From assembly GCA_017469925.1 (NCBI GenBank), contig JAFUFK010000011.1, forward strand, positions 20,450-84,449: a stretch of 64,000 nt of DNA. Direction: 5' to 3'. The stretch is from Bacteroidaceae bacterium (GTDB lineage Bacteria; Bacteroidota; Bacteroidia; Bacteroidales; Bacteroidaceae). Shown piece by piece: positions 15,794-59,984 of the stretch. The notes under the pieces are model-generated. The model was not told the origin of the DNA, did not search any database, and was given only the letters and a program-made list of their open reading frames with translations. The translations under genes and the position numbers were made by a program. The stretch's first letter is position 1; every line of letters begins with the position of its first letter.

Positions 15794-15885
15794 ATGTTAT
15801 ATTAACTTGCGGCCACAGGTTAACATAACTCGCGGCCATAGATTAACATAACTCGTGGCCGAAGGTTAACATAACTTACAGCCGC
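15794..15885. repeat. Palindrome array A: four 23-nt units with GTTA-N3-TAAC cores
   Basis: Cores begin at 15796, 15819, 15842 and 15865, exactly 23 nt apart: GTTATATTAAC, GTTAACATAAC, ATTAACATAAC, GTTAACATAAC. Each is a dyad with 4-bp arms and a 3-nt centre. The 12-nt spacers are also related, with a central GGCC or AGCC. The period is not a multiple of three, so the array is not coding. It sits in the 537-bp gap between divergent aroB and the first FKBP gene. The rest of that gap holds the two promoters, a GC-rich stretch with no gene I can see (15886-16070), and AT-rich leader DNA. The same core family recurs at 26136. Confidence 0.85.
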
Positions 15886-16109
15886 CGGTTTCGGGCCCCG
15901 TCCGGAGAAGGAAATATCCGTCTGATTTTCAATCTGTTGCCATTTCTCCCAAAATCCTCCCCTCACCACGGGCCGAACGCAGCCCCCTCTTCACACCATT
16001 CGCCGGGAGGGGCCCGCTTGTAACGATTTTTCAAAACCCGCGAATCTCCGCCCTATGTTATTTTTCTATTAAAAAACCTTAAAGCAGGGCTCGTTTCGTT
16101 TATTTTCCG

Positions 16110-16117
16110 TATCTTTG
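16110..16117 (+). promoter_or_regulatory. -7 element upstream of the FKBP cluster
   Basis: TATCTTTG followed by CAC is a full TAnnTTTG match 44 nt before the first FKBP start. I do not see a clear TTTG at the right distance upstream, so the promoter may be weak or need an activator. Confidence 0.5.
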
Positions 16118-16161
16118 CACGCGAAAATTATTATTTCATAATAAAAACAGCAAAAAAAACT

Positions 16162-16746
16162 ATGGACAAAATCAGTTACGCTCTGGGCCTCGGCATCGGC
16201 CAACAGCTTAAGAGCATGAACATTAAGGGATTCAACATCGGCGACTTCACGAAGAGCATTGCCGACGTCATCGACGGCCAACCTACCCTGATGACGGCAC
16301 GCGAGGCACAGGAGCTGCTGAACGAATACTTTGCCACGAAGCAGGCCGAGGAATCGAAACGGGCCATCGAGGAAGGAGCCGTGTTCCTGCGCAACAACGG
16401 TCAGCGCGAGGGCGTGGTGACCACGAAGAGCGGCCTGCAGTACGAGGTATTGCAGGAAGGCACGGGCCGCAGCCCGAAGGCTACCGACCGGGTGCGCTGC
16501 CACTACGAGGGACGCCTCATCAGCGGCGACGTCTTCGACAGTTCGTACAAGCGCCAGCAACCCGCCGACTTCGGCCTCAACCAGGTAATCCCCGGCTGGA
16601 CGGAAGGCGTGCAGCTGATGAAGGAGGGCGCGAAGTTCCGCTTCTTCATCCCCTACCTGCTGGGCTATGGCGAGCAGGGGGCCGGCAGTTCCATCCCACC
16701 CTACTCTACCCTCATCTTCGACGTAGAATTAATCAAAGTTTTATAA
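16162..16746 (+). CDS. FKBP-type peptidyl-prolyl isomerase, cytoplasmic
   Basis: The 194-residue protein has no signal peptide and starts directly with the helical dimerisation region of FkpA/FKBP22-type enzymes (MDKISYALGLGIGQQL, residues 1-75). The isomerase domain fills about residues 88-194: TTKSGLQYEVLQEGTG, VRCHYEGRLISGDVFDSSY, FGLNQVIPGWTEGVQLM, GAGSSIPPYSTLIFDVELI. Active-site positions (Tyr, Phe, Asp, Ile, Trp, Tyr, Phe) are kept. It speeds cis-trans isomerisation of prolyl bonds and probably acts as a folding chaperone. It is the first of three tandem FKBP genes, and the only one predicted to stay in the cytoplasm. The next gene starts 23 nt after its stop. Confidence 0.9.
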   Translation: MDKISYALGLGIGQQLKSMNIKGFNIGDFTKSIADVIDGQPTLMTAREAQELLNEYFATKQAEESKRAIEEGAVFLRNNGQREGVVTTKSGLQYEVLQEGTGRSPKATDRVRCHYEGRLISGDVFDSSYKRQQPADFGLNQVIPGWTEGVQLMKEGAKFRFFIPYLLGYGEQGAGSSIPPYSTLIFDVELIKVL

Positions 16747-16769
16747 ATCCTAAAAACACAAAAAACAAA

Positions 16770-17639
16770 ATGAAAAAGTTAAGCATTATCTTCGTGGTGG
16801 CCATTGCTGCCATCATTGCATCTTGCGGCAACGGCACCCCCAAGGCCGACCTCAAGAACGACATCGACACCTTCTCCTATGCCTTCGGCATGGACCGCAC
16901 ACAGGGTCTGAAGGAGTACATGGTCAGCATGGGCGTGGACACCGCCTACATGGACGAGTTCATCAAGGGTCTGAACGAAGGCGCCAACGCCAACGACGAC
17001 AAGAAGAAGGCAGCCTACTTCTTCGGCCTCAACATCGGCCAGCAAATCAGCCAGCAGATGGTTAAGGGCGTCAACTACGAACTCTTCGGCGAGGACTCGA
17101 CCCAGAGCATCAGCATGAAGAACTTCATGGCCGGCTTCGTAAGCGCACTCACCGAGAAGGGTGGCCTGATGACCCTCAACGAGGCTCAGGTGGTATCGCG
17201 CCAGAAGCAGCAGGAAATCAAGAAGGCCCAGATGGAGAAACTCTACGGCCCCTGGAAGCAGGAGAACGAGGACTTCATGGCTAAGATTGCCAAGCAGGAA
17301 GGCCTGTCGAAACTCGACAACGGCGTCTTCTACAAGGTCATCGAGGAAGGCAAGGGCGAAGTGCCCGCCGACACCAGCCGCGTCAAGGTGAACTACGAAG
17401 GCAAGCTCATCAACGACACCATCTTCGACAGTTCGTACAAGCGCAACGAACCCACCACGTTCCGTTGCAATCAGGTAATCCCCGGATGGACCAACGCACT
17501 GACCCACATGCCCGTAGGCTCGAAGTGGGAGGTTTACATCCCCGCCGACCAAGCTTACGGGGACCGCGAGGCCGGGCCCGTCATCAAGCCCTTCTCGGCA
17601 CTGGTATTCACCATCGAACTCCTGGGCATCGAGAAGTAA
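16770..17639 (+). CDS. FKBP-type peptidyl-prolyl isomerase, lipoprotein
   Basis: This 289-residue FkpA/Mip-like isomerase is lipid-anchored. The signal peptide ends in the lipobox IASC (Cys19). The alpha-helical N-domain (about 28-175: DTFSYAFGMDRTQGLKEYMV, FFGLNIGQQISQQM) is followed by the FKBP domain (about 185-289: VNYEGKLINDTIFDSSYKR, NQVIPGWTNAL, AYGDREAG, FSALVFTIELLGI). The usual IPP before the last strands is replaced by VIKPFS. It likely folds exported proteins at the periplasmic face of a membrane. It ends one nucleotide before the start of the third FKBP, so the two are almost certainly co-translated. Confidence 0.9.
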   Translation: MKKLSIIFVVAIAAIIASCGNGTPKADLKNDIDTFSYAFGMDRTQGLKEYMVSMGVDTAYMDEFIKGLNEGANANDDKKKAAYFFGLNIGQQISQQMVKGVNYELFGEDSTQSISMKNFMAGFVSALTEKGGLMTLNEAQVVSRQKQQEIKKAQMEKLYGPWKQENEDFMAKIAKQEGLSKLDNGVFYKVIEEGKGEVPADTSRVKVNYEGKLINDTIFDSSYKRNEPTTFRCNQVIPGWTNALTHMPVGSKWEVYIPADQAYGDREAGPVIKPFSALVFTIELLGIEK

Positions 17640-17640
17640 A

Positions 17641-18531
17641 ATGAAAAAGACACTCATCCTCTTAGCGGCGCTGTGCTGTCTGACGGCCAGCGCCGCCAAC
17701 AAGAAGAAGGCCAAGAAGGTCGCCGCCCCCGTGGAGAAGGTCGATACCGTCAGCATCAACGACTTCTGTTATGCCCTCGGCAAGGTCAACACACAGGGAC
17801 TGAAGGAGTATCTCGCCCAACGCATGGGCGTGGATGCCGCCTACATGGACGACTTCGTGAAAGGCTTCGACGCAGGCACCCTGACCGAGGCCGACAAGCG
17901 CGAGAAGGCTCGCCTGGCCGGACTGGAGATTCGCGAACAGGTGATGAATCAAATCATCCCCCGATTCTCGAAGCAAATCAACGACTCCGTTGACCTGATG
18001 AATGCCGACCGCTTCGTGGCTGGCTTCCGTGCCGGACTGACGGGCGAGAACGACGAGATGCCCATCTCGATGGACAGCGCACAGACCATCGTGAGCAAGC
18101 AGATGGACTACTACCACAAGGAACAGATGGAACGCAAGTACGGCGCCAACCGCAAGGCCGGTGAGGAATTCCTGAAGCAGAATGCCAAGGCGAAGGACGT
18201 AGTCACTACCCCCAGCGGACTGCAGTACAAGGTGCTCACGAAGGGCGAGGGCGAAGTGCCCACCGCCTCACAGCGCGTCAAGGTGAACTACGAAGGTCGC
18301 CTGCTCGACGGCACCGTATTCGACAGCTCGTACAAGCGTAACGAACCCGCCACCTTCGGTTGCAGCCAAGTCATCAAGGGATGGACCGAAGCCCTGACCA
18401 TGATGCCCGTCGGCTCGAAGTGGGAACTCTACATCCCGCAGGAACTGGCCTACGGCGACCGCGAGACGGGCAGCATACCACCTTACTCCATGCTCATTTT
18501 TACAGTTGAACTGTTAAGCATTGAAAAGTAA
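17641..18531 (+). CDS. FKBP-type peptidyl-prolyl isomerase, periplasmic
   Basis: The 296-residue protein has a cleavable signal peptide (MKKTLILLAALCCLTASA, cut near residue 18). A Lys/Ala-rich linker, the helical FkpA-type N-domain (about 38-180), and a complete FKBP domain follow (about 190-296: TTPSGLQYKVLTKGEG, VKVNYEGRLLDGTVFDSSYKR, CSQVIKGWTEALTMMPVGS, GSIPPYSMLIFTVELLSI). It should be soluble in the periplasm, unlike its two neighbours. The last 11 nt of the gene also contain the TTG start of the CotH-type gene, so expression of the two is probably coupled. Confidence 0.9.
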   Translation: MKKTLILLAALCCLTASAANKKKAKKVAAPVEKVDTVSINDFCYALGKVNTQGLKEYLAQRMGVDAAYMDDFVKGFDAGTLTEADKREKARLAGLEIREQVMNQIIPRFSKQINDSVDLMNADRFVAGFRAGLTGENDEMPISMDSAQTIVSKQMDYYHKEQMERKYGANRKAGEEFLKQNAKAKDVVTTPSGLQYKVLTKGEGEVPTASQRVKVNYEGRLLDGTVFDSSYKRNEPATFGCSQVIKGWTEALTMMPVGSKWELYIPQELAYGDRETGSIPPYSMLIFTVELLSIEK

Positions 18532-20584
18532 CCGATTCACTACCCTACTGCTGGGCTGCCTGGCAGTCCTCGCAATCCATGCGCAGGTTGATGAGACGCA
18601 CGTTCGCCTCACCAACCTGCCGCATGTTTACATCAACACCTTCACGGGCAGCAGCATCACCAGTAAGGTGAACTACGTCTATGCCCGCATGTGGTACGTC
18701 GATGAGCGCGACAGCGTCGCCTTCTACGACTCACTGGAAATCCGCGGACGCGGCAACTCGACATGGAACCTCGCCAAGAAACCCTACAAACTGAAGTTCC
18801 ACGAAAAGGAGAAGCTCCTGGGCAAAGGCTATGCCAACACCAAGAAGTGGACCCTCATGGCCAACCATGCCGACAAGACGCTCATCCGCAACGCCATAAC
18901 CAGCCTGCTGGGCGAACGCCTGGGGCTGAAGTTCAATCCTGCCGCAAAGTTCGTTGACCTCACGCTCAACGACAAGTACGTGGGCAACTACCAGATTTCG
19001 GACCACGTCGATGTGCGCCCCCATCGGGTCAACGTCGCCGAGCAGGACTACCCCTTACTCGAAGAAAGCAACATCACGGGCGGATACCTGTTGGAGGCCG
19101 ACGGCTTCTACGACTTCACCAACGGAGTCTCGGGCTTCTACACCCCGAACAGCAATGTGCCCATCCGCATACACTATCCCGACGAAGACGAAATTGCCAG
19201 CACCCAGTACAAATATATCCGCAACAGCGTCTATGACTTCGAGAACCGGCTCTTCGCCGACTCGTTCAAGGACGCCACGGAAGGCTACCGCCCACGCGTA
19301 GATAGCGTTTCCCTGGCCTATTGGTATATTGCCACGGAGGTCAGCGGCAACGTCGATGGATTCTTCTCGGCCTATTTCTATAAGGAACGCGACGACGACC
19401 GCTTCTTCTGGGGGCCACTCTGGGACTACGACATTGCCTATGGCAACGACGACCGCAAGGGCGACACCTCGCGACAGATGATGAAGGACGTGGCCCACGG
19501 AGCTGCCATGCGCACCTGGGTCAACCGCATGTGGGAGGACCCCTGGTTCGCCCGCCTCATCAATCGGCGCTATCAGAAGGCCGTCGATGACGGGCTGGCC
19601 GATTACATGATAGAGAAAATCGACAGTCTGGCCAACCTGCTCCAACGCTCGCAGGCCAAAAACTATGAACTCTGGGGCATCAACCGGAAGACCCTGCGCG
19701 AGCGGGTGCTCTACTCCTCTTACGACCAGTACGTCAGCGACCTGCGCTCGTACGTCAACACGCACATCGCCTACCTGCAGACGGCCTTTGCCAACCTGCT
19801 GCCCGACGAACCCGAACCGCCACAGCCACCTCAGCCCAAGGTGCCCGACTTCGAGGCCGACACGTTGCTCTACTATACGATTACAAATGTCGGTTCGGGC
19901 ACAGTCTTCGACATCAATGCCGAGACGGACCAAATCTGCGGCAACCATCGCGACGAGGAGGCCGAAAGCCAGCAGTGGCGCATCTTCCCCCTCTCAAACG
20001 GCTACCTGCACATCGTAAACCGTGCCACGGGCATGGCCCTTTGCGACCCCACCGAGGGTGAGCCTACGGCAACAACACTCATCGGCACCCAACTAAGCGT
20101 GGCCGCTTCCGACTCACTCGACACCCGTCAGCAATGGGACCTCGTGGCCCAGAGCGACGAACAGTTCAACGTCATCAACCGCTTCAGCGACCACGAAGCC
20201 AACCTGAGCGGAGGCAGCAGCAACAACGGTACACGCATCATCAGCTACACCAACGACGAGCGCAACACCTCCTCGAAGAACCGCCTTTGGCGCCTGACTG
20301 CCGTCGATTCCGTAGAGGTTGACACTCACGACGAATACGATGGTATCGAGGCTCCCCTACCCGACTATGCCTTGGCTTACGACCCGGCGGGCGAACGCCT
20401 GCACTTCGGAAGCGACGACCTGTCGCAGTTGGGTTTCGTAGTACGCGTCTATGACCAATCGGGCCGCAACGTCCGTACCTTCCGCGCCACGGAGGAGTGC
20501 AGCATGAGCGGACTGCCCCGAGGCCTCTACATCGTCTCGTGGACGGAGCAGGGCAAGCGCCGCAGCGTGAAGTTTATGAAGTAA
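18521..20584 (+). CDS. CotH-kinase-family protein with ricin-type domain and T9SS-type tail
   Basis: The 687-residue exported protein appears to start at a TTG overlapping the FKBP stop. This is the only in-frame start that gives a signal peptide (MKSNRFTTLLLGCLAVLAIHA, cut before Gln). Residues 60-420 form the CotH kinase domain, including EIRGRGNSTW, KKPYKLKFHEK, WTLMANHADKTLIRNAI and the metal-binding-like WDYD at 301-304 (WGPLWDYDIAYGND). CotH proteins are atypical protein kinases in Bacillus spores; substrates in Bacteroidetes are unknown. Residues 450-595 look like a ricin-type beta-trefoil (QQWRIFPL, QQWDLVA, NRLWRLT). The C-terminus (FVVRVYDQSGRNVRTF, GLYIVSWTEQGKRRSVKFMK) resembles a T9SS sorting domain. 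So it is probably a surface protein. Confidence 0.85.
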   Translation: MKSNRFTTLLLGCLAVLAIHAQVDETHVRLTNLPHVYINTFTGSSITSKVNYVYARMWYVDERDSVAFYDSLEIRGRGNSTWNLAKKPYKLKFHEKEKLLGKGYANTKKWTLMANHADKTLIRNAITSLLGERLGLKFNPAAKFVDLTLNDKYVGNYQISDHVDVRPHRVNVAEQDYPLLEESNITGGYLLEADGFYDFTNGVSGFYTPNSNVPIRIHYPDEDEIASTQYKYIRNSVYDFENRLFADSFKDATEGYRPRVDSVSLAYWYIATEVSGNVDGFFSAYFYKERDDDRFFWGPLWDYDIAYGNDDRKGDTSRQMMKDVAHGAAMRTWVNRMWEDPWFARLINRRYQKAVDDGLADYMIEKIDSLANLLQRSQAKNYELWGINRKTLRERVLYSSYDQYVSDLRSYVNTHIAYLQTAFANLLPDEPEPPQPPQPKVPDFEADTLLYYTITNVGSGTVFDINAETDQICGNHRDEEAESQQWRIFPLSNGYLHIVNRATGMALCDPTEGEPTATTLIGTQLSVAASDSLDTRQQWDLVAQSDEQFNVINRFSDHEANLSGGSSNNGTRIISYTNDERNTSSKNRLWRLTAVDSVEVDTHDEYDGIEAPLPDYALAYDPAGERLHFGSDDLSQLGFVVRVYDQSGRNVRTFRATEECSMSGLPRGLYIVSWTEQGKRRSVKFMK

Positions 20585-20604
20585 AGACAACTACAACATA
20601 TATT

Positions 20605-22377
20605 ATGGATTTCGACTGGAAAGCAAAGTACGACGCGCTGCACAGCACGTTTCCTACGCACAAGCGTCGGCCCGTAATCGGCATCACCGGCAACTTTGGC
20701 GATAAAGGTTGCGAACTGGCTGAAGGATATTACCGTTCCGTGCTCGAAGCCGGCGGCACGCCTTTTATCATCCCGCCCTACGAGGACAAGGATGCCCTGC
20801 TCGGTGTGCTCGACCATATCGACGGACTGCTGCTCTCGGGCGGCGGCGACATCAATCCGCTCTTCCTCAACGAAGACCCTTCTCCCCAATTGGGAAGCAT
20901 CAATCCTCGTCGCGACCTGCCCGAACTGCTGTTAGTCCGCCTGGCCTACGACCGTCAAATCCCGATGTTAGGCATTTGCCGAGGCATCCAGATGCTGGCC
21001 GCCGCATTGGACGGCAAGCTCTATCAGGACATCAGTCATGCCCCGTGCAAGCACGAGAGCGAATGCCCCATCAAGCATGACCAAAGCCTGCCCCGCGAAT
21101 ATGCTTCGCATCGGATTTCGGTAGAGCAGGACAGCACGCTCGAGCACATCTTCGGCGGCAACCACACATTGTTTGTCAACTCCTTCCACCACCAAGCTGT
21201 AGCCGCCCCTGGACCCCACCTCCGCGTGTCGGCCACTGCACCTGACGGCATTATCGAAGCCATCGAGAGCACGGAGCACAAGAGCATTCTGGGCGTCCAG
21301 TGGCATCCCGAATGTTTTATCTTGCGGGGCGACCGTACGATGCTTCCTCTGTTCCAGTGGCTCGTGGGCGAAGCCTCATCGTTCCGCGAGGCCATCGAGT
21401 TACACGAACGCATCCTCACCCTCGACAGCCATTGCGACACACCGATGTTCTTCGACCAGGACATCTGCTTCAACCAGCGCGATCCTAGGATTCTCGTCGA
21501 TTTACACAAGATGACCGAGGGACACCTCGACGCCAGCATCATGGTGGCCTACCTGCCTCAGGGCGAACGCGACGACGAAAGCCTGCGTAAGGTTACGGCC
21601 AAGACCTATCAGTTGCTCGACGGCATCGAGCATCTCGTTGTCAGCAACAGCAAGCACATCGGACTGGCTCGTACGCCCGACGAACTCTACCAGTTGAAGG
21701 CCGAGGGAAAGAAAGCCATCATGATGGGCATCGAAAACGGCTATGCCATCGGTCGCGACCTTTCGCTACTCGGACATTTCCGCCGGCGCGGCATCGTCTA
21801 TATGACACTTTGCCACAATGGCGACAACGACATCTGCGACTCGGCCCGTGGCAAGGGCGAGCATGGAGGTCTGAGTCCCTTCGGCCGCGAGGTCGTCCGC
21901 GAGATGAATCGTCTGGGCATCATGGTTGACCTGAGCCATGCTGCCGAGAGTAGTTTCTGGGATGCTTTGCAATTGAGTTCGGTACCCATCGTATGCAGCC
22001 ACTCCAATTGTCGCTCTCTCTGCGACCACCCACGCAACCTTACCGACGAACAGATGCGAGCCTTGGCCGAAAGGGGCGGAGTCATGCAAATAACCCTCTA
22101 CGAAGGTTTCCTGCGTCGCGACGGGCAAGCAACAATCCTCGATGCCGTCCGACACATCAACCATGCCGTTGAGGTCATGGGCATCGAGCACGTAGGCATC
22201 GGCACCGACTTCGATGGCGACGGCGGTGTGCCTGGCGTGGCCTCGGCCAGCGAACTTATCAATCTCACGCGCCTCTTACGCCAGGTGGGCTACAACGAGC
22301 AGCAACTGCGCATGCTCTGGGGCGAGAACTTCCTCCGCGTGATGCGTGAAGTACAATTGAATGTTGATGAAAACTGA
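20605..22377 (+). CDS. Fusion of peptidase C26-type glutamine amidotransferase domain and M19 dipeptidase
   Basis: One 590-residue reading frame joins two hydrolases. Residues 15-255 are a class I glutamine-amidotransferase/peptidase C26 domain of the PuuD (gamma-glutamyl-GABA hydrolase) type. The nucleophile Cys125 is in GICRGIQML, and His234 and Glu236 are in WHPE. Residues 270-585 are a zinc-dependent M19 (renal-dipeptidase-type) domain, with His276-x-Asp278, the metal-bridging Glu in GIENGYAIG, and His residues in DLSHAAESS and CSHSNCRSL. It ends with GIGTDFDGDGG. There is no signal peptide, so it should act in the cytoplasm. A two-step cleavage of gamma-glutamyl peptides is a natural inference. 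The ATG at 20605 gives the expected MDFDWKAKYDAL start; longer frames upstream overlap the CotH gene. Confidence 0.88.
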   Translation: MDFDWKAKYDALHSTFPTHKRRPVIGITGNFGDKGCELAEGYYRSVLEAGGTPFIIPPYEDKDALLGVLDHIDGLLLSGGGDINPLFLNEDPSPQLGSINPRRDLPELLLVRLAYDRQIPMLGICRGIQMLAAALDGKLYQDISHAPCKHESECPIKHDQSLPREYASHRISVEQDSTLEHIFGGNHTLFVNSFHHQAVAAPGPHLRVSATAPDGIIEAIESTEHKSILGVQWHPECFILRGDRTMLPLFQWLVGEASSFREAIELHERILTLDSHCDTPMFFDQDICFNQRDPRILVDLHKMTEGHLDASIMVAYLPQGERDDESLRKVTAKTYQLLDGIEHLVVSNSKHIGLARTPDELYQLKAEGKKAIMMGIENGYAIGRDLSLLGHFRRRGIVYMTLCHNGDNDICDSARGKGEHGGLSPFGREVVREMNRLGIMVDLSHAAESSFWDALQLSSVPIVCSHSNCRSLCDHPRNLTDEQMRALAERGGVMQITLYEGFLRRDGQATILDAVRHINHAVEVMGIEHVGIGTDFDGDGGVPGVASASELINLTRLLRQVGYNEQQLRMLWGENFLRVMREVQLNVDEN

Positions 22378-22382
22378 AAGTC

Positions 22383-26047: not shown

Positions 26048-26135
26048 CAAAAAAATTGACTGGGGGCGATTTTTAACATATTTTGTTCGGATTTTTCCTA
26101 CCTCTTTGGGGGCGGTCCGGAACCTGCCGCCGGAA

Positions 26136-26227
26136 GTTATGTTAACCTATCGGTCGAAATTATGTTAACTTCTGGCCACTGATTAACTTAACCTGGGGGC
26201 GTAGGTTAACATAACTTTCGGCAACCC
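26136..26227. repeat. Palindrome array B: four 23-nt units with GTTA-N3-TAAC cores, orientation mixed
   Basis: Cores begin at 26136, 26159, 26182 and 26205, strictly 23 nt apart: GTTATGTTAAC, ATTATGTTAAC, ATTAACTTAAC, GTTAACATAAC. The first two are the reverse complement form of the core in array A; the last is the direct form. Three of the four 12-nt spacers contain GGYC or GGGC. The array lies between convergent genes (U32 and uvrA2), so it is not a promoter-proximal operator for either. The rest of this 290-bp gap has a GC-rich imperfect hairpin (about 26312-26335) just past the uvrA2 stop that may help termination. Confidence 0.85.
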
Positions 26228-26337
26228 CTTCGAAGGCATAAAGAAAACACCCCATTTATCGTTGATAGACAGTGTGTTACGCTTTTTGTCGAATGCTGCA
26301 ATTCGGAGATGGGCTCGCCCCGCCGCCCCGGGCGAAG

Positions 26338-28611: not shown

Positions 28612-28620
28612 TCGGGAGCG

Positions 28621-30742: not shown

Positions 30743-30798
30743 TACATTTGAGAAATACTTTAAAGGGATTCGGCAGAAAAGTTCTCGTCCCCTTCGTC

Positions 30799-30939
30799 GT
30801 TCGGCCACGGTGGAACGATGATTCGGCCGCGGTGGAACGTTCGTTCGTCCGCGGACGAACGATGAGAACCTTTCGTCGTTCCATCGCGATGGAACGTTCG
30901 TTCAATGCGCATCGGTCGTTCGTTCAATGCGCATTGAAC
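30799..30939. repeat. Palindrome array D: six 18-nt GTTC-N10-GAAC cores in two triplets at 22-nt period
   Basis: Cores begin at 30799, 30821, 30843 and then 30878, 30900, 30922; the period is 22 nt within each triplet and 35 nt between them. The pattern is GTTC-N3-CGCG or GCGC-N3-GAAC. Units at 30843, 30878 and 30922 are perfect 18-bp palindromes with different inner triplets (gtc/gac, cat/atg, aat/att). The arms therefore covary. The unit at 30900 matches 30922 on its left arm only. Spacers are 4 nt, GTTC or GATG. The array fills the gap between the metG promoter and the promoter of the dockerin gene, ending 20 nt before the latter's -33 box. Confidence 0.88.
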
Positions 30940-30959
30940 GATGGAAATGTATCGATATA

Positions 30960-31017: not shown

Positions 31018-33660
31018 ATGAAACGTACTTGTATCAGTCTGCTCCTGACGCTCCTCTTCCTGCTCCCCGGCACGGGAGCAAGGGCCGCCGGCTACACGGG
31101 CAGCACGCCCGCGGCGGGCACGCGGTATTACCTCTATAATGTATATCAGGCGAAGTTCCTGTCCGACGGAGGCTCCGGGGGCACGCAGCTGTCGCTCTCC
31201 GACAGGCAACCCCTGCTTTGCACGCTGGAGGCGAGCGGCAGCGGCTACGTGCTGGGCACCAGCTACGGCAATCTGCTGGACACGGTGTTCACCCTCGGCG
31301 AGGCCGACGAGGGGTACTACCTCGACGGGGCACAGGGTGCCCTGATGTTCGACGCGGGCACGGCCTGCACGGTGGCCAACCGCAGCGAGGGCTACAACGC
31401 CGACAAGGCGCTCTGGCGCTTCGTCACCGAACAGGAGTATGCCGAGATGCAGGGGAAGGCACGCTTCACCGTGGCGGCCATGAACGTCGATGGCATGCCG
31501 CGCAGCATCAAGGTGGCTGGAATCTATACCGTCAACCTGAACTCCGACGGCAAGGAGGCCGAAGGGGCCACGGCCATGGGGCAGAAGATGAAGACCCTGG
31601 GCTACGACTTCATCGCCGCCAGCGAGGACTTCAACTACAACGACGAAATCATGGCCCAGATAGGCGACACTTACAACCAGGGTACCCACCGGGGGAAGAT
31701 TGACGGCTCGCTGGGCACGGCCATCAATTACCTGGCTAAGAAGACTCTCTTCGACACCGACGGCCTGAACTTCTTCTGGAAGAAGACCCTGGGAGCGGGC
31801 TCCGAAAGCTGGACGGCCTGGAACGAGCATTACGGCTACGACGACCACGAGGCCGACGGCCTGATAAACAAGGGCTACCGCTACTACCTGGCGACGCTGG
31901 CCGACGGCACGCAGGTGGACATCTACATCCTGCACATGGAGGCCGGTTCCGACACGGGCGACAACGCAGCCCGAGCCACCCAAATCACGCAACTGGCCAA
32001 CGCCATACTGGCCTCGGCGGGCAACCGCCCCATCATCATCATGGGCGACACCAACTGCCGATACACCCGCGACGCCCTGAAGTCGCGCCTCATCGACGTC
32101 ATCAATGCCGACGAACGCTTCACCATCCACGACGCCTGGGTGGAACACGGCCGACAGGGCATCTACCCGACCGGTTCCAATGCCATCATGGCTTCGGAAC
32201 ACGGCTACCGAAAGGGGGAGGTCGTAGATAAGGTGTTCTACATCAACAGCACCCGCTCCGACATCCGACTGGTGGCCGAGGCGTACCGCCAAGACCTGTC
32301 GTTCGTGAACGACGCGGGCGAGGCCCTGGCCGACCACTGGCCCTGCGTGGTCGATTTCTCGTACCACACCTACGACCCGGCCATCGACGACCTCACGGAC
32401 GTGGGCAGCATGGAGGACGTCTTCCTGCGCAACGTAGAGACGGGCTGCTTCCTGAAGGCAGGCGGCTGGTGGTGTACGCATGCCGTGGCGGGCGACTATG
32501 GCAGCGCACTCAACCTCAACCAGTTGCCCAACGGGAAGTATGTCATACAAACACCTATGGGATTCCTCAGCCAGGACGACCCCTACATGGACAGGCCCGA
32601 GCAGTATTCCTGGACACTCCTTGAGCGCAACGGCCACTACCTCTTAGCCTACGAGAGCGGCGGCGCCATGAAGGCCCTGACGGGCAACGCCCCCACCACA
32701 TTCCCCTACGGGCCCAACAGGCGATACGTCACCTGCGCCGCCCTGAACATGGACGACCGCTACCAGATGTGGGACATCGTAAGCCGCGAGGAACTCATGG
32801 ACGAGATGCTGCGAGGGGGCGAGAAACACCCCTACAACTGCACCTTCCTATTGCCCGGAGCCAACTTCGACCGCAACGACCCCAAGAGCAAATCGACCGA
32901 CAACGGCGGAGCATGGTCGTGCAACATCTCGGCCACGGCCAGCAAGATGTGGTACAACTTCGAGGACGGCAAGGTGGACTATGAGCGAGGCAACTATGTA
33001 GGCGAGGTCTATAATGACTCTTACAGCGGTATCACCTCTTACGAAACCCGATGGGAGATGGGGCAGACGCTCACCGGACTGCCCAAGGGGCGGTATCGGG
33101 TGACCTGCCAGGGATTCTACCGCGACGGCAGCATGAACCAGAACAACCCGGGCACCATCCACTCCTACCTCTACCTGCGCACCAAAGCGGGGGCAACGGA
33201 GGTGAAGACGACGCTCAAGTCGATGTACTCGGCCCAGTGCCAGACGAATCTGGAGGGCATTATCGGGAACACCGACGCCAACGGCTACTACATCCCGAAC
33301 ACAATGGCCGAAGCCAGCATCTTCTTCAGCCAGGGCTATTACGAGAACGAACTGACCATCGACGTTAGCGACGGCACGCTTGGCGTCGCCATCGGAAAAC
33401 CTGACGTCACGAAGAGCACCAGCGGATGGACGTGCTTCGACAACTTCCAAATCTATTACCTCGGTTCGGGCATCGCAGGCGACGTGAATTGCGACGGTCT
33501 CGTGACCATTGCCGACGTGACGGCGCTGGTGAACATCATCCTCGGGAAGGACGACACAAAACCTTACCAGTACAGCCACGACGCGGCCGACGTGAACCAG
33601 GACGACAGCATCACCATCGCCGACGTGACGGCGCTGGTGAACCTGATTCTGGGTAAGTAA
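31018..33660 (+). CDS. Secreted endonuclease/exonuclease/phosphatase-fold protein with C-terminal dockerin
   Basis: From the ATG at 31018 the 880-residue protein has a signal peptide (1-22, ARA/AGYT). An N-terminal domain follows with RYYLYNVYQAKFLSDGG, resembling that of the 1367-residue protein. An EEP-fold domain spans about 149-445, with Asn in AAMNVDGMP, GDTNCRYTRD, and the catalytic DHWP at 439-442. Next come a second trefoil-like region (about 460-590) and a beta-sandwich binding-like module (about 608-815). The C-terminus (821-880) has two calcium-loop repeats, DVNCDGLVTIADVTALVNII and DVNQDDSITIADVTALVNLI, forming a type I dockerin. EEP enzymes cut phosphodiesters or phosphomonoesters; DNA, lipid and sugar-phosphate substrates are all possible. 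The substrate and any cohesin partner are unknown. No T9SS tail follows. Confidence 0.83.
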   Translation: MKRTCISLLLTLLFLLPGTGARAAGYTGSTPAAGTRYYLYNVYQAKFLSDGGSGGTQLSLSDRQPLLCTLEASGSGYVLGTSYGNLLDTVFTLGEADEGYYLDGAQGALMFDAGTACTVANRSEGYNADKALWRFVTEQEYAEMQGKARFTVAAMNVDGMPRSIKVAGIYTVNLNSDGKEAEGATAMGQKMKTLGYDFIAASEDFNYNDEIMAQIGDTYNQGTHRGKIDGSLGTAINYLAKKTLFDTDGLNFFWKKTLGAGSESWTAWNEHYGYDDHEADGLINKGYRYYLATLADGTQVDIYILHMEAGSDTGDNAARATQITQLANAILASAGNRPIIIMGDTNCRYTRDALKSRLIDVINADERFTIHDAWVEHGRQGIYPTGSNAIMASEHGYRKGEVVDKVFYINSTRSDIRLVAEAYRQDLSFVNDAGEALADHWPCVVDFSYHTYDPAIDDLTDVGSMEDVFLRNVETGCFLKAGGWWCTHAVAGDYGSALNLNQLPNGKYVIQTPMGFLSQDDPYMDRPEQYSWTLLERNGHYLLAYESGGAMKALTGNAPTTFPYGPNRRYVTCAALNMDDRYQMWDIVSREELMDEMLRGGEKHPYNCTFLLPGANFDRNDPKSKSTDNGGAWSCNISATASKMWYNFEDGKVDYERGNYVGEVYNDSYSGITSYETRWEMGQTLTGLPKGRYRVTCQGFYRDGSMNQNNPGTIHSYLYLRTKAGATEVKTTLKSMYSAQCQTNLEGIIGNTDANGYYIPNTMAEASIFFSQGYYENELTIDVSDGTLGVAIGKPDVTKSTSGWTCFDNFQIYYLGSGIAGDVNCDGLVTIADVTALVNIILGKDDTKPYQYSHDAADVNQDDSITIADVTALVNLILGK

Positions 33661-50986: not shown

Positions 50987-51012
50987 GTAACCTAAGCGAC
51001 ACACATCACCTG

Positions 51013-51042
51013 GGGGGGACTACATTCACGTGTGGTTCCCCC
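51013..51042 (+). terminator. Rho-independent terminator after HU
   Basis: GGGGGGACTACA (51013-51024) pairs over 12 bp, with G-U pairs, with TGTGGTTCCCCC (51031-51042); the loop is TTCACG, followed by TTTCTTTCC. It separates HU from the ABC exporter gene at 51084. Confidence 0.82.
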
Positions 51043-51083
51043 TTTCTTTCCTTTCCAATCTATAACACGTAACATCGGAACGA

Positions 51084-52889: not shown

Positions 52890-52900
52890 ACCACGTATCG

Positions 52901-52932
52901 TTTGGCCAACTCGGAATTATTTTGTACCTTTG
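52901..52932 (+). promoter_or_regulatory. argS promoter
   Basis: TTTG (52901-52904), 20 nt spacer, TACCTTTG (52925-52932), followed by CAGCC. A full consensus match. It supports the argS start at 52978 and excludes the longer in-frame reading that begins inside the ABC gene. Confidence 0.8.
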
Positions 52933-52977
52933 CAGCCGCAATGTAATAGAAATAAGGTAAAAGAAAGAAAAAACAGC

Positions 52978-54777: not shown

Positions 54778-54779
54778 AA

Positions 54780-54908
54780 GACCCTCCCCCGTCCCCTCCC
54801 TTATAGGGCGGGGAGCAGATACAAACAAGAAAAATGAGTGAAGAGCATACACATAATGCAAATATAAATGCCCCCCTCCTTCAAAGGGAGGAGCAAGGAG
54901 GTGGGTCC
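54780..54908. repeat. Inverted pair of REP-like GC-rich palindromes
   Basis: A left copy (54780-54815, beginning GACCCTCCCCCG and containing CCCTCCCTTATAGGGCGGGG) and a right copy (54870-54908, containing CTCCTTCAAAGGGAGGAG and ending in GTGGGTCC) are related in opposite orientation. They flank about 54 nt of AT-rich DNA. The pair begins right after the argS stop and extends into the first 25 codons of the RNase HI gene. It resembles the paired REP units known from many bacteria; no transposase is in the window. Confidence 0.65.
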
Positions 54909-55298
54909 GCCTTGGCCGTTGATGCAGCCTGCTCGGGGAACCCTGGCCCGATGGAGTATCGCGGTGTGCATCTGCCGTCGGGGGGGCAGCTATTCCACTA
55001 TGGCCCCATCTGGGGAACCAACAATATCGGTGAGTTCCTGGCCATTGTCCATGCGCTGGCACTTATCAAGCAAAACGGATGGGACATGAAGGTCTATAGC
55101 GACTCGTACAACGCCATCCTATGGGTCGGCAAACGGCAGTGCAAGACCAAATTGGAACGCAACGAGAAGACGGCCAAGGCCTACGAACTCATTGCCCGCG
55201 CCGAGCGCTGGCTTCGGGAGAACCCTCAGCACGCCCCCGTGCTGAAGTGGGAAACCGCCGAGTGGGGCGAGGTTCCTGCCGACTTTGGTAGAAAATAA
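54834..55298 (+). CDS. rnhA: Ribonuclease HI
   Basis: RNase HI cuts the RNA strand of RNA-DNA hybrids. The 154-residue protein keeps the catalytic carboxylates Asp30 (AVDAACSGNPG), Glu67 (NNIGEFLAI), Asp90 (VYSDSYNAI) and Asp150 (ADFGRK). The fold otherwise fits the compact Bacteroidetes type (MEYRGVHLPSGGQLFHYGP). Residues 1-25 precede the first core strand. Residues 13-25 are encoded by the right half of a REP-like palindrome, so this N-terminal tail looks acquired. No other ATG in frame would keep Asp30; a non-ATG start just before LAVD is possible. The next gene follows after 15 nt. Confidence 0.88.
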   Translation: MSEEHTHNANINAPLLQREEQGGGSALAVDAACSGNPGPMEYRGVHLPSGGQLFHYGPIWGTNNIGEFLAIVHALALIKQNGWDMKVYSDSYNAILWVGKRQCKTKLERNEKTAKAYELIARAERWLRENPQHAPVLKWETAEWGEVPADFGRK

Positions 55299-55313
55299 AA
55301 CCAGAACGTAAGG

Positions 55314-57152
55314 ATGAAGGCTTTCTATCAGACCATGGGCAAGTACTTTGCCCGCTACAAACGCTACATTGCCGGCACGCTGGTAATGAACATCCTGGCA
55401 GCCCTGTTCAATGTTTTTTCGTTCACCGTCATCCTGCCCATCTTACAGATTCTGTTCAAAATCAACGACGAACGCTACTCGCTGATTCCTTGGGAGACGG
55501 CCAACTGGGACGACTTCGTCAATGTGGCCAAGAACAACGGCTACTACTACAGCCAGCAGATGATTGAGACCTACGGACCCTCCACCACCCTGCTGCTGCT
55601 CGGTCTGTTGCTGGCCGGGCTGACCCTACTGAAGACGCTTACCTACTTCGGAGGCTCGGCCATGCTGGCCCCGCTGCGCACGGGCATTGTGCGCGACATC
55701 CGCAACGACATCTACCGCAAGATTGTCAGCCTGCCCCTGTCGTTCTTCAGCGAAGAGCGCAAGGGCGACATCATGACGCGCATCACGGCCGACGTCAACG
55801 AGGTCGATTCCAGCATCACCTCGTCGCTCGACATGGTCATCAAGAACCCCATTTTCATTCTCGTCTATCTGTTCGCACTTATCCGCATCAGTTGGCAACT
55901 GACGCTCTTCACCATGCTCGTCGTGCCCCTCCTGGCCCTAAGCATCGGCCGTATCGGTAAGAAGTTGCGCTCGAAGTCGCTGGTCATGCAGGCCAAGTTA
56001 TCCGACAGCGTCAGCCAAATCGAGGAGACCCTGGGCGGACTGCGCATCATCAAGGCCTTCATTGCCGAGGGGAAGATGATTGACCGCTTCGAACGCGTGA
56101 CGGCCGAATATCGCCACATCGGCAACCGTGTGGCCATACGCCATTCGGCAGCTCACCCCCTGAGCGAGTTCCTCGGCACGCTGATGATTGTCCTCGTGCT
56201 GTGGTTCGGTGGCTGGCTCATCTTCAACGGCGACAGCCCCATCGATGCCAGTCTGTTCATCTACTACCTCATCATCCTCTACACCATCCTCCAGCCCATC
56301 AAGGACCTCTCGAAGGCGGGCTACAGCATCCAGCGAGGCATGGCTTCGATGGACCGCATCAACAAGATACTGTCTGCCGAGAACAACATCCGCGAGCCCG
56401 AAAAGCCCCATTTCATCGATGACTTCCGTCAGGACATCACACTCCACGACGTCAATTTTGCCTACGCCGAGGGGCGCGAGGTGCTCCATGGCATCAACCT
56501 CACCATACCGAAGGGCAAGACCATCGCACTCGTCGGGCAGTCGGGTTCGGGCAAGAGCACGCTGGTCGATCTCATTCCGCGTTTCCACGACGTCAGCGCA
56601 GGCTGCATCACCATCGACGGCACCGACATTCGTCAACTGGGCATCCACTCCCTGCGTTCGCTCATCGGTAATGTCAACCAGGAGGCCATCCTCTTCAACG
56701 ACACCATCCGCAACAACATCGCCTTTGGCAAGGACGGTGCCACGCAGGAGGAGATAGAACAGGCGGCCCGCATAGCCAACGCCCACGACTTCATCATGGA
56801 GATGGCCGAGGGCTACGACACGATGGTGGGCGACCGCGGTTGCCGCCTCTCCGGCGGTCAGCGCCAGCGCATCTCCATCGCCCGTGCTATCCTGAAGAAT
56901 CCGCCCATCCTCATCCTCGACGAGGCCACTTCGGCACTCGACACCGAGAGCGAGCGACTGGTGCAGGACGCACTGGAGCGACTAATGTCGAACCGCACCA
57001 CCATTGCCATAGCCCACCGCCTCTCGACCATCAAGCATGCCGACGAAATCTGCGTCCTCCACGAGGGTCGCATCGTGGAGCGTGGCACACACGAAGAGCT
57101 CATTGCCCTCGACGGCTACTACAAGCGGCTCAACGACATGCAGCAACTGTGA
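55314..57152 (+). CDS. MsbA-like ABC exporter
   Basis: The 612-residue half-transporter resembles lipid flippases of the MsbA type. The membrane domain (about 1-345) includes FSFTVILPILQILF and a large loop with DDFVNVAKNNGYYYSQQM. The ATPase (about 365-605) has Walker A GQSGSGKSTLVDLIP near 408, signature LSGGQRQRISIARAIL near 515, Walker B PILILDEATSALD near 535, and AHRLSTIKHADEI. Its place directly before an LtaS-like enzyme and an LpxL-like acyltransferase supports export of lipid A or another envelope lipid, which is inference. Drug export is the main alternative. Confidence 0.87.
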   Translation: MKAFYQTMGKYFARYKRYIAGTLVMNILAALFNVFSFTVILPILQILFKINDERYSLIPWETANWDDFVNVAKNNGYYYSQQMIETYGPSTTLLLLGLLLAGLTLLKTLTYFGGSAMLAPLRTGIVRDIRNDIYRKIVSLPLSFFSEERKGDIMTRITADVNEVDSSITSSLDMVIKNPIFILVYLFALIRISWQLTLFTMLVVPLLALSIGRIGKKLRSKSLVMQAKLSDSVSQIEETLGGLRIIKAFIAEGKMIDRFERVTAEYRHIGNRVAIRHSAAHPLSEFLGTLMIVLVLWFGGWLIFNGDSPIDASLFIYYLIILYTILQPIKDLSKAGYSIQRGMASMDRINKILSAENNIREPEKPHFIDDFRQDITLHDVNFAYAEGREVLHGINLTIPKGKTIALVGQSGSGKSTLVDLIPRFHDVSAGCITIDGTDIRQLGIHSLRSLIGNVNQEAILFNDTIRNNIAFGKDGATQEEIEQAARIANAHDFIMEMAEGYDTMVGDRGCRLSGGQRQRISIARAILKNPPILILDEATSALDTESERLVQDALERLMSNRTTIAIAHRLSTIKHADEICVLHEGRIVERGTHEELIALDGYYKRLNDMQQL

Positions 57153-57167
57153 GGCGCGGAGCGCCAG

Positions 57168-57199
57168 TGCAAAGTTCAAAATGCAAAGTTGAAAGTTAT
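57168..57199 (-). repeat. 7-nt-period repeat before the LtaS-like gene
   Basis: Read on the minus strand: ATAACTT, TCAACTT, TGCATTT, TGAACTT, TGCAC. This is the same AACTT heptad type as at 24747 and 27256. It fills most of the 45-nt gap between the ABC gene stop and the ATG at 57198, and the ATG overlaps its edge. Confidence 0.65.
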
Positions 57200-58928
57200 G
57201 AAAAAGGCCGACAAATACATCTTATCGCTTCTGCTTCTGCTGATAGTCATCTTCCTGCTCGGCAAGATGGCTTTCATGTTCTATAACGGGGACATCCACG
57301 CCGTGACGGGCGGAGAACTATTGGGCGTGCTTGCCCACGGCCTGTTGCTCGACGTGCGTACGGCGGCCCTGCTCCTGCTGTTCCCTGCGGCATGTGTCTG
57401 CCTCATACGACACAGGTTGCGCTGGGTCTTGGTGCCCTACTTCTGCCTGCTGGGCTTCGTGGTGGGCACCATCGTCGTGGCCGACATGGTGATGTACGAA
57501 TTCTGGGAGTTCAAGCTCTGTGCCGTACACCTCGCCTACGCCGCCTCCCCCGAGGGCACGACCAACAGCGTCAGCACAACCTTCCTGCTTACCCGTGTGC
57601 TCACCGTCGCGGCCTTCATCCTATTGGTGGCCGTACCCGCTATCAGACTGACGCCCAAAGGCTTCGCCCGCGGTCGCCAGCATTGGCTGTTCATTCTGCT
57701 GGCCATCCTCGCCATACTCCCGGTCGGCGTCGGCTCCTGCTACCATCGGGGGCCGCTCTTCCTGAGCCATGCGGCCACGAATCCCGTCTATCGTTTCGCC
57801 ACATCCTTCGCCGACACGCGCCGCTACAGCTCCGTGCCCGCCGACGTCAGCACGGCCTTCCGCACCTCTGATGAGGTGACCGACTCCCTCCTGCGCACCG
57901 ACCGCCCCAACGTGCTCTTCGTTATGATGGAGAGTTTCGGCGGCAAGTTCGTCCGGGAACTCGGCGGACTGCCCGACGTAGCCCCCCAGTTGTCGCGCCT
58001 CATCCCCGAAGGCATCTTCTGGGACCAGTACTACAGCAGTTCGTTCCGCACCGACCGCGGCACCGTCTGCGCCTATTCGGGTTGGCTGGGCTACCCCACC
58101 ATCAGCCCCATGAAGGAGGTCGGGATGCACCCCCGTCTCTCGTCGTTGCCCCAGCCCTTGCGTCAGAATGGGTACCAGACGGGCTACATGTACGCCGGCG
58201 CCATGACCAACATGGGCAAGATGCGCTACCTCGCCGACGCCAGTTTCGAGACACTCTTCGACGAGACCTACTTCACGCCCGACGAACTCAACTCCAGTTG
58301 GGGAGCCAACGACAGCACGTCGGCCATGAAGATGTTCCACACCATCGCCGAAGTGCGCCCCGAGGCCCAGTGGATGATGGTGTGGCAGACCATCTCGAGC
58401 CACGAGCCCTGGGACGTGCCCTACCAGCGCCTGCCGGACAAGCGCCTCAACGCCTTTGCCTACACCGACCACTGCCTGGGCCAACTCATCGACAGCCTCA
58501 AGACCCTGCCCGTCTGGGACAACCTGCTGGTCATCGTCATCCCCGACCACGGATTCCTCTATGAGCAGACCTACGACGACGCCGAGTTCTTCCACAGCCC
58601 CATGCTCTGGCTGGGCGGAGCCGTCCGAGAGCCACGCCGCATCTCCGTGCTCATGAACCAGAGCGACATCGCCGCGACCCTGTTGGCCCAGATGCAGTTG
58701 CCCCACGACCAGTTCCCCTGGAGCCGCAACGTCCTGGCCCCCGACTACGAACCCTTCGTCTATTGCACCTACCCCGCGGGCCTGCTCTATAAGGACCCCT
58801 CGGGCGAGACCCTCTACGACCTTACGGCCAACCAGCCCGTCCCCATAGGCCAGCCCGCCGACTCCCTGCGCCTGCAGAAGGCACTCGGCATCCTCCATGC
58901 CAGCTATTCCCAAATCCTTAAACCCTGA
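57198..58928 (+). CDS. LtaS-like membrane sulfatase-fold enzyme (phosphoglycerol/phosphoethanolamine transferase type)
   Basis: The 576-residue protein has five predicted membrane segments in the first 180 residues. A periplasmic alkaline-phosphatase/sulfatase-fold domain follows (about 230-540). The metal-binding start is RPNVLFVMMESFGGKF with Glu245. The nucleophile region is SSFRTDRGTVCAYSGW, where the Thr of RGT is the likely nucleophile. Further motifs are GYMYAGAMTNMGKM, WQTISSHEPWDVP (metal His) and VIVIPDHGFLYEQ (Asp-His). Relatives transfer phosphoglycerol or phosphoethanolamine to envelope glycans or lipids. Bacteroidetes lack lipoteichoic acid, so lipid A or capsule modification is more likely. 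Its last 32 nt overlap the acyltransferase gene. Confidence 0.85.
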   Translation: MKKADKYILSLLLLLIVIFLLGKMAFMFYNGDIHAVTGGELLGVLAHGLLLDVRTAALLLLFPAACVCLIRHRLRWVLVPYFCLLGFVVGTIVVADMVMYEFWEFKLCAVHLAYAASPEGTTNSVSTTFLLTRVLTVAAFILLVAVPAIRLTPKGFARGRQHWLFILLAILAILPVGVGSCYHRGPLFLSHAATNPVYRFATSFADTRRYSSVPADVSTAFRTSDEVTDSLLRTDRPNVLFVMMESFGGKFVRELGGLPDVAPQLSRLIPEGIFWDQYYSSSFRTDRGTVCAYSGWLGYPTISPMKEVGMHPRLSSLPQPLRQNGYQTGYMYAGAMTNMGKMRYLADASFETLFDETYFTPDELNSSWGANDSTSAMKMFHTIAEVRPEAQWMMVWQTISSHEPWDVPYQRLPDKRLNAFAYTDHCLGQLIDSLKTLPVWDNLLVIVIPDHGFLYEQTYDDAEFFHSPMLWLGGAVREPRRISVLMNQSDIAATLLAQMQLPHDQFPWSRNVLAPDYEPFVYCTYPAGLLYKDPSGETLYDLTANQPVPIGQPADSLRLQKALGILHASYSQILKP

Positions 58929-59835
58929 TTCCCCCGTGAGCCTCCTCCTCCGCCTCCTGTCTCGTCTGCCCTTGTCGGTCCACTACTTCTTCTCCGACTG
59001 GCTGCTCTATCCCATAGCCCGCTACGTGATACGCTACCGCCGCCGCATCGTGCGCCAGCAGTTGGCCGACAGTTTCCCCGAGCGCACCGAACGCGAACTT
59101 CGCGACATCGAGCGCCGCTTCTACCACTTCCTGTGCGACATCATTGTCGAGACCATCAAACTCCTGACCATGCCCCACCAGGAGGTCAAGCGCCGCGTAG
59201 AGTTCGTCGGCATCGACGAGATGCAGGAGACCCTGCACCGCGAGGGCAAGCACTTCGGATTCTTCTACCTCGGCCACTACGGCAATTGGGAGTGGCTCGC
59301 CTCCTTCCCCCTCTGGCTCAGCGACGAATGGCAGGGAGCCCAAATCTACCACCCCCTCTACAACGCCACGGCCGACCGTATCTTCCTACAGCTTCGCGAA
59401 CAGTTCGGCGGCCGTTGCATCCCCATGAAGCAGACCCTCCGCCAGATACTCAGTGCCCAGCGCGACGGCCAGCGGCAAATCATCGGTTTCATCGCCGACC
59501 AGAGCCCCAAGTGGCAGGCCATGCACCACTGGACACCCTTCCTCCACCACCCGACGGCCTTCTTCACCGGCACCGAGCGCATCGCCCGCCAGGTCGATGC
59601 CGCCCTCTACTACGTCCATGTCACCCGCCCCCGTCGCGGCTACTACCGTGCCGAACTCGTCCCCATCAGCCTCCAGCCCTCCGACCTCGCCGAGTTCGAG
59701 GCCACCGACCGCTACGTCCAACTCCTCGAGGCCCAGATTCAGGCGCAGCCCCACCTCTGGCTCTGGACCCACAACCGCTGGAAGCGCACCTACGAACGTT
59801 GGCTCGAAAGGGAACAAAGTTCCAGACAAAACTAA
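58897..59835 (+). CDS. LpxL/HtrB-family lipid A acyltransferase
   Basis: These inner-membrane enzymes add secondary acyl chains to lipid A. The 312-residue protein has an N-terminal hydrophobic segment (about 14-40), then RRIVRQQLADSFPERTERE, and the HX4E catalytic motif His127-Glu132 in FYLGHYGNWEWL. The downstream conserved stretches are IYHPLYNATADRIFLQLREQFGG and GFIADQSPKW. The sequence ends with LWLWTHNRWKR, the classical C-terminal motif. Overlap of 32 nt with the LtaS-like gene shows tight coupling. With the MsbA-like exporter it makes a plausible lipid A assembly and export operon. Which acyl position is modified cannot be told. Confidence 0.9.
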   Translation: MPAIPKSLNPDSPVSLLLRLLSRLPLSVHYFFSDWLLYPIARYVIRYRRRIVRQQLADSFPERTERELRDIERRFYHFLCDIIVETIKLLTMPHQEVKRRVEFVGIDEMQETLHREGKHFGFFYLGHYGNWEWLASFPLWLSDEWQGAQIYHPLYNATADRIFLQLREQFGGRCIPMKQTLRQILSAQRDGQRQIIGFIADQSPKWQAMHHWTPFLHHPTAFFTGTERIARQVDAALYYVHVTRPRRGYYRAELVPISLQPSDLAEFEATDRYVQLLEAQIQAQPHLWLWTHNRWKRTYERWLEREQSSRQN

Positions 59836-59903
59836 AATCCTTTCCACCCCCTCCTTTACACATCTTTAACCCGTCGCGCGTACGCTCGCACATGCGCGTT
59901 GGA

Positions 59904-59984
59904 AACCAGTGACTGGTTAAGCCGAAACCAGTCACTGGTTTCGCCGAAAGGAGTGACTGGTTAAAATTTAACCAGTGACTGGTT
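59904..59984. repeat. Palindrome array C: four AACCAGT-N-ACTGGTT cores at 22-nt period
   Basis: Cores begin at 59904, 59926, 59948 and 59970, exactly 22 nt apart. Three are perfect 7-bp-arm dyads with a single central base (G, C, G); the third has two arm changes (AAGGAGT). Spacers of 7 nt are aagccga, tcgccga and aaaattt. If transcribed, adjacent arms could also form hairpins (ACTGGTT-N7-AACCAGT). The array lies in the 354-bp gap between the acyltransferase and the BspA-like gene. The rest of the gap is AT-rich with TTTTTG runs; I see no gene and only weak promoter-like matches near 60146-60174. Confidence 0.87.

Follow-up and report, generated by a model that had tools for sequence, protein, structure and literature searches.

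The stretch analysed here, 64,000 nt of Bacteroidaceae bacterium contig JAFUFK010000011.1 and hereafter called the window, corresponds to G000:C17:20450-84449, where G000 is the host genome (2.87 Mb, 28 contigs). By methionyl-tRNA synthetase, the nearest named kin of the host are Bacteroidaceae of the ruminant gut (water deer, 90%; red deer, 89%; best segment). The window carries four short arrays of phased palindromic repeats, indicated as A, B, C and D, at positions 15781-15895, 26121-26222, 30790-30945 and 59902-59989. As anticipated by the original prediction, all four are located between called genes and have a step of 22 or 23 nt; the genes were called by a simple caller, which overlooks some of them.

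Array A (no strand assigned; G000:C17:36230-36345) is composed of dyads phased at 23 nt, with core GTTAACATAAC. Array B, also unstranded, matches A at 6e-13 and has the core in common with it (GTTAACATAAC/GTTATGTTAAC), so that three families are present rather than four separate core classes, the arrays being local copies of families dispersed in the genome. The ends of B form an imperfect inverted repeat, GGAACCTGCCGCCGGAAGTTATGTTAACC ... GGTTAACATAACTTTCGGC. At 26244-26280, on the minus strand, a terminator-like hairpin lies near B: it recurs next to many family A arrays, with family consensus GCCCCGTTTCTcGTTGAgAAACAGGGC, and received no call from a simple terminator scan. Array C, on the plus strand, is made of two blocks of palindromes of about 20 bp, CGTTC-N10-GAACG, stepping by 22 nt, with 35 nt between the blocks. 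Block 1 (30790-30869) contains CGTTC-GGCCACGGTG-GAACG, a related imperfect unit and CGTTC-GTCCGCGGAC-GAACG; block 2 (30871-30945) contains CGTTC-CATCGCGATG-GAACG, an imperfect middle unit and CGTTC-AATGCGCATT-GAACG. Adjacent to C (window 31018-33660) is the gene of a large protein that carries a dockerin type I domain. Array D, on the plus strand, features four dyads AACCAGTSACTGGTT with a 22-nt step, the third unit reading GAAAGGAGTGACTGGTT, as it does in most copies. It is flanked, on the same strand, by a left arm of alternating CGCGTACGCTCGCACATGCGCGTTG (59874-59901) and by a right arm, GGGAAGCAGATTCTCG...GATTTGCCGTTTCCGATTATTTTCG (59990-60040), both of which align with those of other complete copies.

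The extent of the three families was evaluated by searching the host genome with its own arrays. The A query produced 39 matches at E<=0.001, corresponding to 27 loci, all of which were analysed; apart from A itself, they are 69-84% identical to the query. For C, matches are up to 96% identical and 15 loci were analysed (five more, with E >=1.8, were left out), while for D they reach 100% over 111 nt and 18 loci were analysed (one, with E 0.5, was left out). Five D loci are 97-100% identical over 111 nt, and the copy at G000:C3:17289-17399 is identical to that of the window. The arrays are clear of called open reading frames in 58 of 60 cases; the other two extend into a called end, by 2 nt and 23 nt. 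The families are also restricted in distribution: A, C and D array DNA found no BLAST match (E<=1e-6 or 1e-5) in any of the 150 further family genomes searched, 8 of which are from the host's genus.

Spacing between cores is almost constant in D (22 nt in 54 of 55 intervals). In A, it is 23 nt in 67 of 80 intervals, 46 nt in 7 and off register (18 or 28 nt) in 6; in C, 22 nt in 22 of 41, 44 nt in 11, 35 nt, the distance between blocks, in 7, and 48 nt in 1. When the 27 family A loci are aligned, the 23-nt register is unbroken, roughly columns 135-231 having no internal gap, and core positions are invariant while spacers vary. Many family A copies possess inverted-repeat ends and the recurrent hairpin on one side; such terminal inverted repeats (TIRs), clear in many A copies, are by eye not evident in C, D and CAACGCGTTG elements. 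In family C the outer CGTTC...GAACG is constant and the inner decamer varies, many of its variants being self-complementary. The left and right arms are shared among complete D copies, the remaining copies being bare arrays of 4-7 cores. Two minor observations concern these copies. In the C copy L055 (G000:C6:361458-361620), compared by eye with L049, an 18-nt stretch between adjacent palindrome centres looks inverted, as would be expected for template switching at palindromes or for an invertase. Three assembly contigs terminate in D-family arrays or no more than 30 nt from them (C4 start, C2 end, C28 end: positions 29, 100976 and 31397), which suggests that near-identical D copies probably break the assembly.

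Arrays of this kind were then looked for as tandem repeats, regardless of core, in non-coding DNA (period 14-40, at least 3 units, unit identity >=68%). Within the window, the scan picked up A, both C blocks and D, and missed B. Over 40 dinucleotide shuffles of the window it returned 2 arrays of any period, none at 22/23; four stretches of E. coli MG1655, 200 kb in all, contained no non-coding tandem array, the two that lie inside coding DNA having periods of 18 and 33. Similar arrays at the same rate in shuffled or unrelated genomes, named by the original prediction as a refutation, were thus seen neither in the shuffles of the window nor in the 200 kb of E. coli. The scanned sample, 1,959,287 bases, comprised the window, stretches of six other family genomes and 80 Bacteroidales metG loci. 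Of the 95 non-coding arrays found, 39 have period 22 and 6 have period 23, the next commonest period being 14, with 19 arrays; these counts are not independent, as 10 arrays come from genome G060 alone. Period 22/23 arrays are present in all seven of the genomes sampled, although G082 has just 1 in 200 kb, and at 11 of the 80 metG loci.

Dyad symmetry is tied to the period: of the 45 arrays with period 22/23, 27 have a symmetrical unit at p<0.01, versus 3 of the 50 with other periods (Fisher 8e-9). The same architecture is found, with unrelated cores, in other genomes of the genus, of the family and of other Bacteroidales families. Inspected by eye, most genomes differ in core: G078 has a CCTTAGG-like one, G110 a CGACCGGTCG-like one and G153 a GCGAATATTCGC-like one, whereas that of G060 is CAACRYGTTG. 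The idea of one design with different cores holds, in this sense, well beyond the window, but not within it for A and B.

The richest case is G060, from the host's genus. The pattern CAACRYGTTG-N(2..32)-CAACRYGTTG has 255 matches there; 255 are also found with the gap fixed at 12, and none with the reversed control. The equal counts indicate that core pairs step by 22 nt, with the reservation that, if one match is counted per start, rare other gaps behind a 12-nt one would stay hidden. In ten stretches of this genome (198 kb), 35 of 37 exact cores are non-coding, and distances up to 110 nt are solely 22, 44, 66 and 88. In arrays detected without using the core, 27 of 39 phased units match it exactly and 34 of 39 depart from it at one position at most. 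When autocorrelation alone is used to find the arrays, identity between units of one array is 0.82 for the core versus 0.47 for the spacer. Of 151 genomes, 7 contain the fixed-gap pattern. They are G060, then G030 (33), G120 (19), G089 (17) and G148 (15), which belong to another genus, g30, and finally G010 and G114, with one occurrence each. The pattern is present at most once in the seven remaining genomes of the host's genus and in G000. One core can therefore be common to two genera. In G089, G120 and G148 the spacer often holds a second dyad around ACGT, which results in dyads every 11 bp. There is no sign that spacers fold back on one another, as the identity on folding back is 0.29 in G060 (10 comparisons), versus 0.41 for random pairs, and 0.51 in g30 (12 comparisons), versus 0.57. 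Few as the comparisons are, this favours double-strand sites over a long hairpin.

Whether arrays move or expand, as the original prediction had asked, could be followed among G089, G120 and G148, where six groups of loci have an array in orthologous position in two or in all three genomes. Unit number differs by exactly one (3 versus 4 cores) in two groups, L342/L344 versus L343 and L350 versus L351. At a seventh locus the difference is of two units, exactly 44 nt, between L352 and L360, with L359 in agreement with L352. At the one locus examined for an empty site, loss or gain of units was seen instead. One ectopic copy was also found: L352 (G148) and L353 (G120), which have flanks that fail to align, carry an 89-nt array with 98.9% identity. 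Array sequence is likewise all that L347 and L348 share. Both this ectopic copy and the near identity among D copies support the view that the elements may spread whole.

Several known systems were considered for comparison. Iterons, parS sites and operator arrays are phased dyads or repeats that act as multivalent protein sites; the arrays resemble them in phasing, but occur at tens of host loci, and as up to 255 core pairs in G060, and no cognate gene was found. Clustered regularly interspaced short palindromic repeats (CRISPR) consist of 24-48 nt repeats with unique spacers and cas genes. Here the unit is 22 or 23 nt and neighbouring spacers are alike; no search for cas genes was made.

A named relative exists, where the original prediction knew of no named equivalent: the nearest one is BrickBuilt of Porphyromonas gingivalis. 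According to PMC4596501, BrickBuilt is a miniature inverted-repeat transposable element (MITE)/minisatellite, confined to P. gingivalis and P. gulae, made of tandem 23-nt units without spacer at 19 strictly intergenic loci. Whole-repeat variation in unit number among strains, dyad or stem-loop potential, leader and tail segments and IS5-like TIRs (GAGACCTTTGCA) are also described there. The arrays are likened to it by build and behaviour, not by unit sequence: both are found in Bacteroidales, at many intergenic loci, and change by whole units, and family A also has a 23-nt step (22 in C and D). The leader/tail TIR feature, on the other hand, was not encountered, the motif GAGACCTTTGCA having 6 matches in the window (at most 2 mismatches) against 5.0 expected, none at an array; moreover, the host genome holds three families. 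According to PMC4596501, the P. gingivalis W83 genome paper reports 22-, 23- and 41-nt direct repeats, which are alike in unit length.

Repetitive extragenic palindromic (REP) families are defined, according to PMC3733652 and PMC6006769, by a tag and a cognate REP-associated tyrosine transposase (RAYT). Together with the bacterial interspersed mosaic elements (BIMEs) and REPINs, they share with the arrays short intergenic palindromes in many copies, clustering and an uneven distribution of the families (same sources). The GTAG/CGTC foot, in contrast, is not constant on the cores of the arrays, though frequent in A and C: searched for on both strands, no more than 6 nt from the core, it is found at 0 of 53 exact D cores, 1 of 37 in G060, 14 of 48 in A and 16 of 48 in C. 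A second difference is that the arrays are phased at exactly 22 nt and show no association with RAYT genes. The arrays belong, in all, with the known small dispersed palindromic elements. The open-access literature that was searched yielded no description of the class beyond BrickBuilt, nor of a phased-dyad rule or of species-specific core turnover, most subscription papers being outside that scope.

The reading that we favour, with moderate confidence, is that of BrickBuilt/REP-like dispersed elements, whose phased dyads would be bound as double strands by a dimeric protein that recognises a different core from species to species. The element would be a small non-coding unit of about 80-230 nt, whose working part may consist of 2-7 palindromic sites on one face of the helix, as 22 or 23 bp is about two helical turns. 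A homodimeric double-strand DNA-binding protein would probably sit on each dyad, with adjacent dimers binding cooperatively; selection for occupancy could keep core and exact spacing, leaving spacers to drift more. Whole units would be gained or lost, probably via slippage or unequal recombination, and entire elements would reach new intergenic sites by means of a putative mobiliser. Turnover of the recognised core between species may leave most genomes with their own families. As to function, the arrays might organise or insulate the DNA between transcription units, or simply serve the mobility of the element. Phasing, kept cores and variable, non-folding spacers are what cooperative dimer binding predicts, and are less expected from a long hairpin or from neutral slippage.

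A number of results weigh against this reading. When arrays are scored by dyads only, as the best run of four with repeat identity disregarded, D reaches 27, C 23 and 22, B 22 and A 19, with a shuffle maximum of 24 (20 shuffles, all periods): of the four window arrays, D only beats the shuffles. A, B and C are distinct as repeats, with many imperfect dyads. No dyad symmetry is detected, even at p<0.05, in 14 of the 45 arrays of period 22/23. Spacers are more self-complementary than shuffles (0.31 versus 0.19 in G060, 0.49 versus 0.26 in g30), hence they are not free. Among orthologues, 0 of 200 core sites changed, versus 103 of 2369 aligned flanking non-coding sites, but the comparison is biased by ascertainment, the loci having been chosen for their exact cores and similar spacers, and no weight is placed on it. 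Array C stays palindromic with different inner decamers (AATGCGCATT, GTCCGCGGAC, CATCGCGATG), which a plain sequence-specific dimer does not need; this hints at hairpin-templated correction or at a structure-specific protein. Family A has terminal inverted repeats and its consensus folds as a long hairpin. Finally, a family of binding proteins had been proposed and none was found, the sole candidate tested, a RAYT-like transposase, not tracking the arrays.

This candidate has a place in another explanation, which we regard as tenable though rather unlikely: the arrays may be selfish MITE/REP-like elements of no gain to the host, the dyads being sites of a transposase (from an insertion sequence, IS, or RAYT-like Y1) and the 22-nt phase reflecting the transposase complex. 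The near-identical dispersed copies, such as the five D loci and the 89-nt array at unrelated loci, are in line with it, and so are the TIR-like ends of family A. So is the presence in the host of two RAYT-like Y1/HUH genes, at L239:817-1860 (G000:C5:90995-92035) and L249:1447-2496 (G000:C6). The better conservation of core than of spacer speaks against it, as do the distribution and location of RAYT-like genes given below, and a D query in its own genome listed no longer element with D ends, ISs not being searched as such.

The RAYT-like proteins have a conserved C-terminal domain of about 120 residues, GxVLVSPxISxGEK...FxACAxGRLLILAPW. The L239 product matches NCBIfam REP_Tyr_transpos at 6e-13, below the cut-off of that model; in a profile search of solved structures, the family obtained weak matches alone (best E 0.01, to chains named transposase), and PADLOC gave no match for two of these proteins. 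Relatives are found in 47 of the 151 family genomes, several in some. None is detected at 1e-10 in G060, which has the densest array family found, nor in G089, G120 and G148, which also bear arrays; in G030, another genome with arrays, the match is weak and partial (4.5e-13, residues 276-353). An array lies within 300 nt of 2 of 39 RAYT loci, versus 5 of 80 metG loci (p = 1.0), and within 1500 nt of 7 of 39 versus 6 of 80 (p = 0.12). Lacking a match where arrays are densest, and significant nearness to arrays, the RAYT-like transposase was rejected as the mobiliser. Two RAYT loci of G153 lie near arrays with cores resembling those of that genome, and in G038 and G124 arrays with similar cores stand beside RAYTs: these neighbours are a weak lead for a RAYT link. 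In G102, a 27-nt array of CTGCAACaccGTTGCAG hairpins directly precedes a RAYT-like gene (L256:1355-1479), an arrangement more REP-like than the 22-nt arrays. Other origins were also examined. Three exact array patterns, two of them from the host genome, have 0 matches in viral contigs, and the D array has no match in plasmids or phages; a phage origin, and a plasmid or phage origin of D, were accordingly discarded.

Structured RNA or single-strand DNA elements, such as terminators or mRNA ends, in which hairpins matter as in REP/BIME, are an unlikely explanation. Genomic localization is in its favour. Taking the window together with stretches from five relatives, a gap of 80 nt or more could be given to 24 of 30 arrays, for a total of 23 distinct gaps: 9 co-directional, 8 convergent and 6 divergent, all gaps being 207, 35 and 50, respectively. 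Arrays are therefore rarer in co-directional gaps than expected, convergent and divergent ones making up 14 of 23 array gaps and 71 of 269 others (Fisher p = 0.0012). The recurrent hairpin beside family A and the varying C inner palindromes, many of which remain palindromic, point in the same direction. Loopless 10-bp cores like CAACRYGTTG, however, make poor hairpins, and spacers do not fold back. No window array has an Rfam match at gathering score, the sole match of the window being a tRNA; in eight array-bearing sources (E<=0.5), arrays gave sub-threshold animal and plant RNA families and tmRNA alone.

Functionless minisatellites, generated by replication slippage with 22 nt as a length favoured in these genomes, are disfavoured and seem quite improbable. 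The tandem build, the length changes of exactly 22 or 44 nt and the fact that some arrays are not dyads would fit; one family at 15-27 dispersed loci per genome, the association of dyad symmetry with period 22/23, the contrast between core and spacer, and the lack of such arrays in 200 kb of E. coli would not. Least probable are portable promoter or operator modules of a regulon: the gene to the right of C is directed away from the array at 13 of 15 loci, at 73-777 nt, many C arrays are directly followed by a motif, TTTG...TAnnTTTG, which we take to be promoter-like, and complete D copies have a promoter-like right arm, but A shows no orientation bias (16 of 27 directed away), among the 16 D loci where a right-hand gene was called it is directed towards the array in 11 (an unsure figure, three neighbours being more than 2 kb off), and no Pfam family is matched by more than 2 of 112 neighbour proteins (first cut to 350 residues). 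A shared function of the neighbours was rejected on the latter count.

An extension of the dimer-site reading can be advanced tentatively, as a possibility that we hold below even chances: across Bacteroidales, a DNA-binding protein of fast-evolving specificity may co-evolve with its phased arrays, close relatives among the species having the same 22-bp architecture with mutually incompatible cores, a bacterial counterpart of a fast-turnover satellite and its binder. If this were true, the system might organise or insulate transcription units, or serve as a self-marking code. A single rule, dyads at two helical turns with any core, would unite scattered repeat families of Bacteroidales, possibly including BrickBuilt, and a DNA-binding protein of rapidly changing specificity would be predicted to await discovery. 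On a practical level, array families may break assemblies, as at the three contig ends above, and could act as strain markers.

Two neighbours of arrays may be added. The gene of an HU-related DNA-binding protein (TIGR01201) is located near a D array, at L233:3297-3824 (G000:C22); HU-HIG matched 2 of the 112 neighbour proteins, too few to carry meaning. In G148, an S-adenosylmethionine (SAM)-II riboswitch (Rfam RF01726, 59 bits) is found at L352:2246-2305, a little more than 100 nt downstream of an array.

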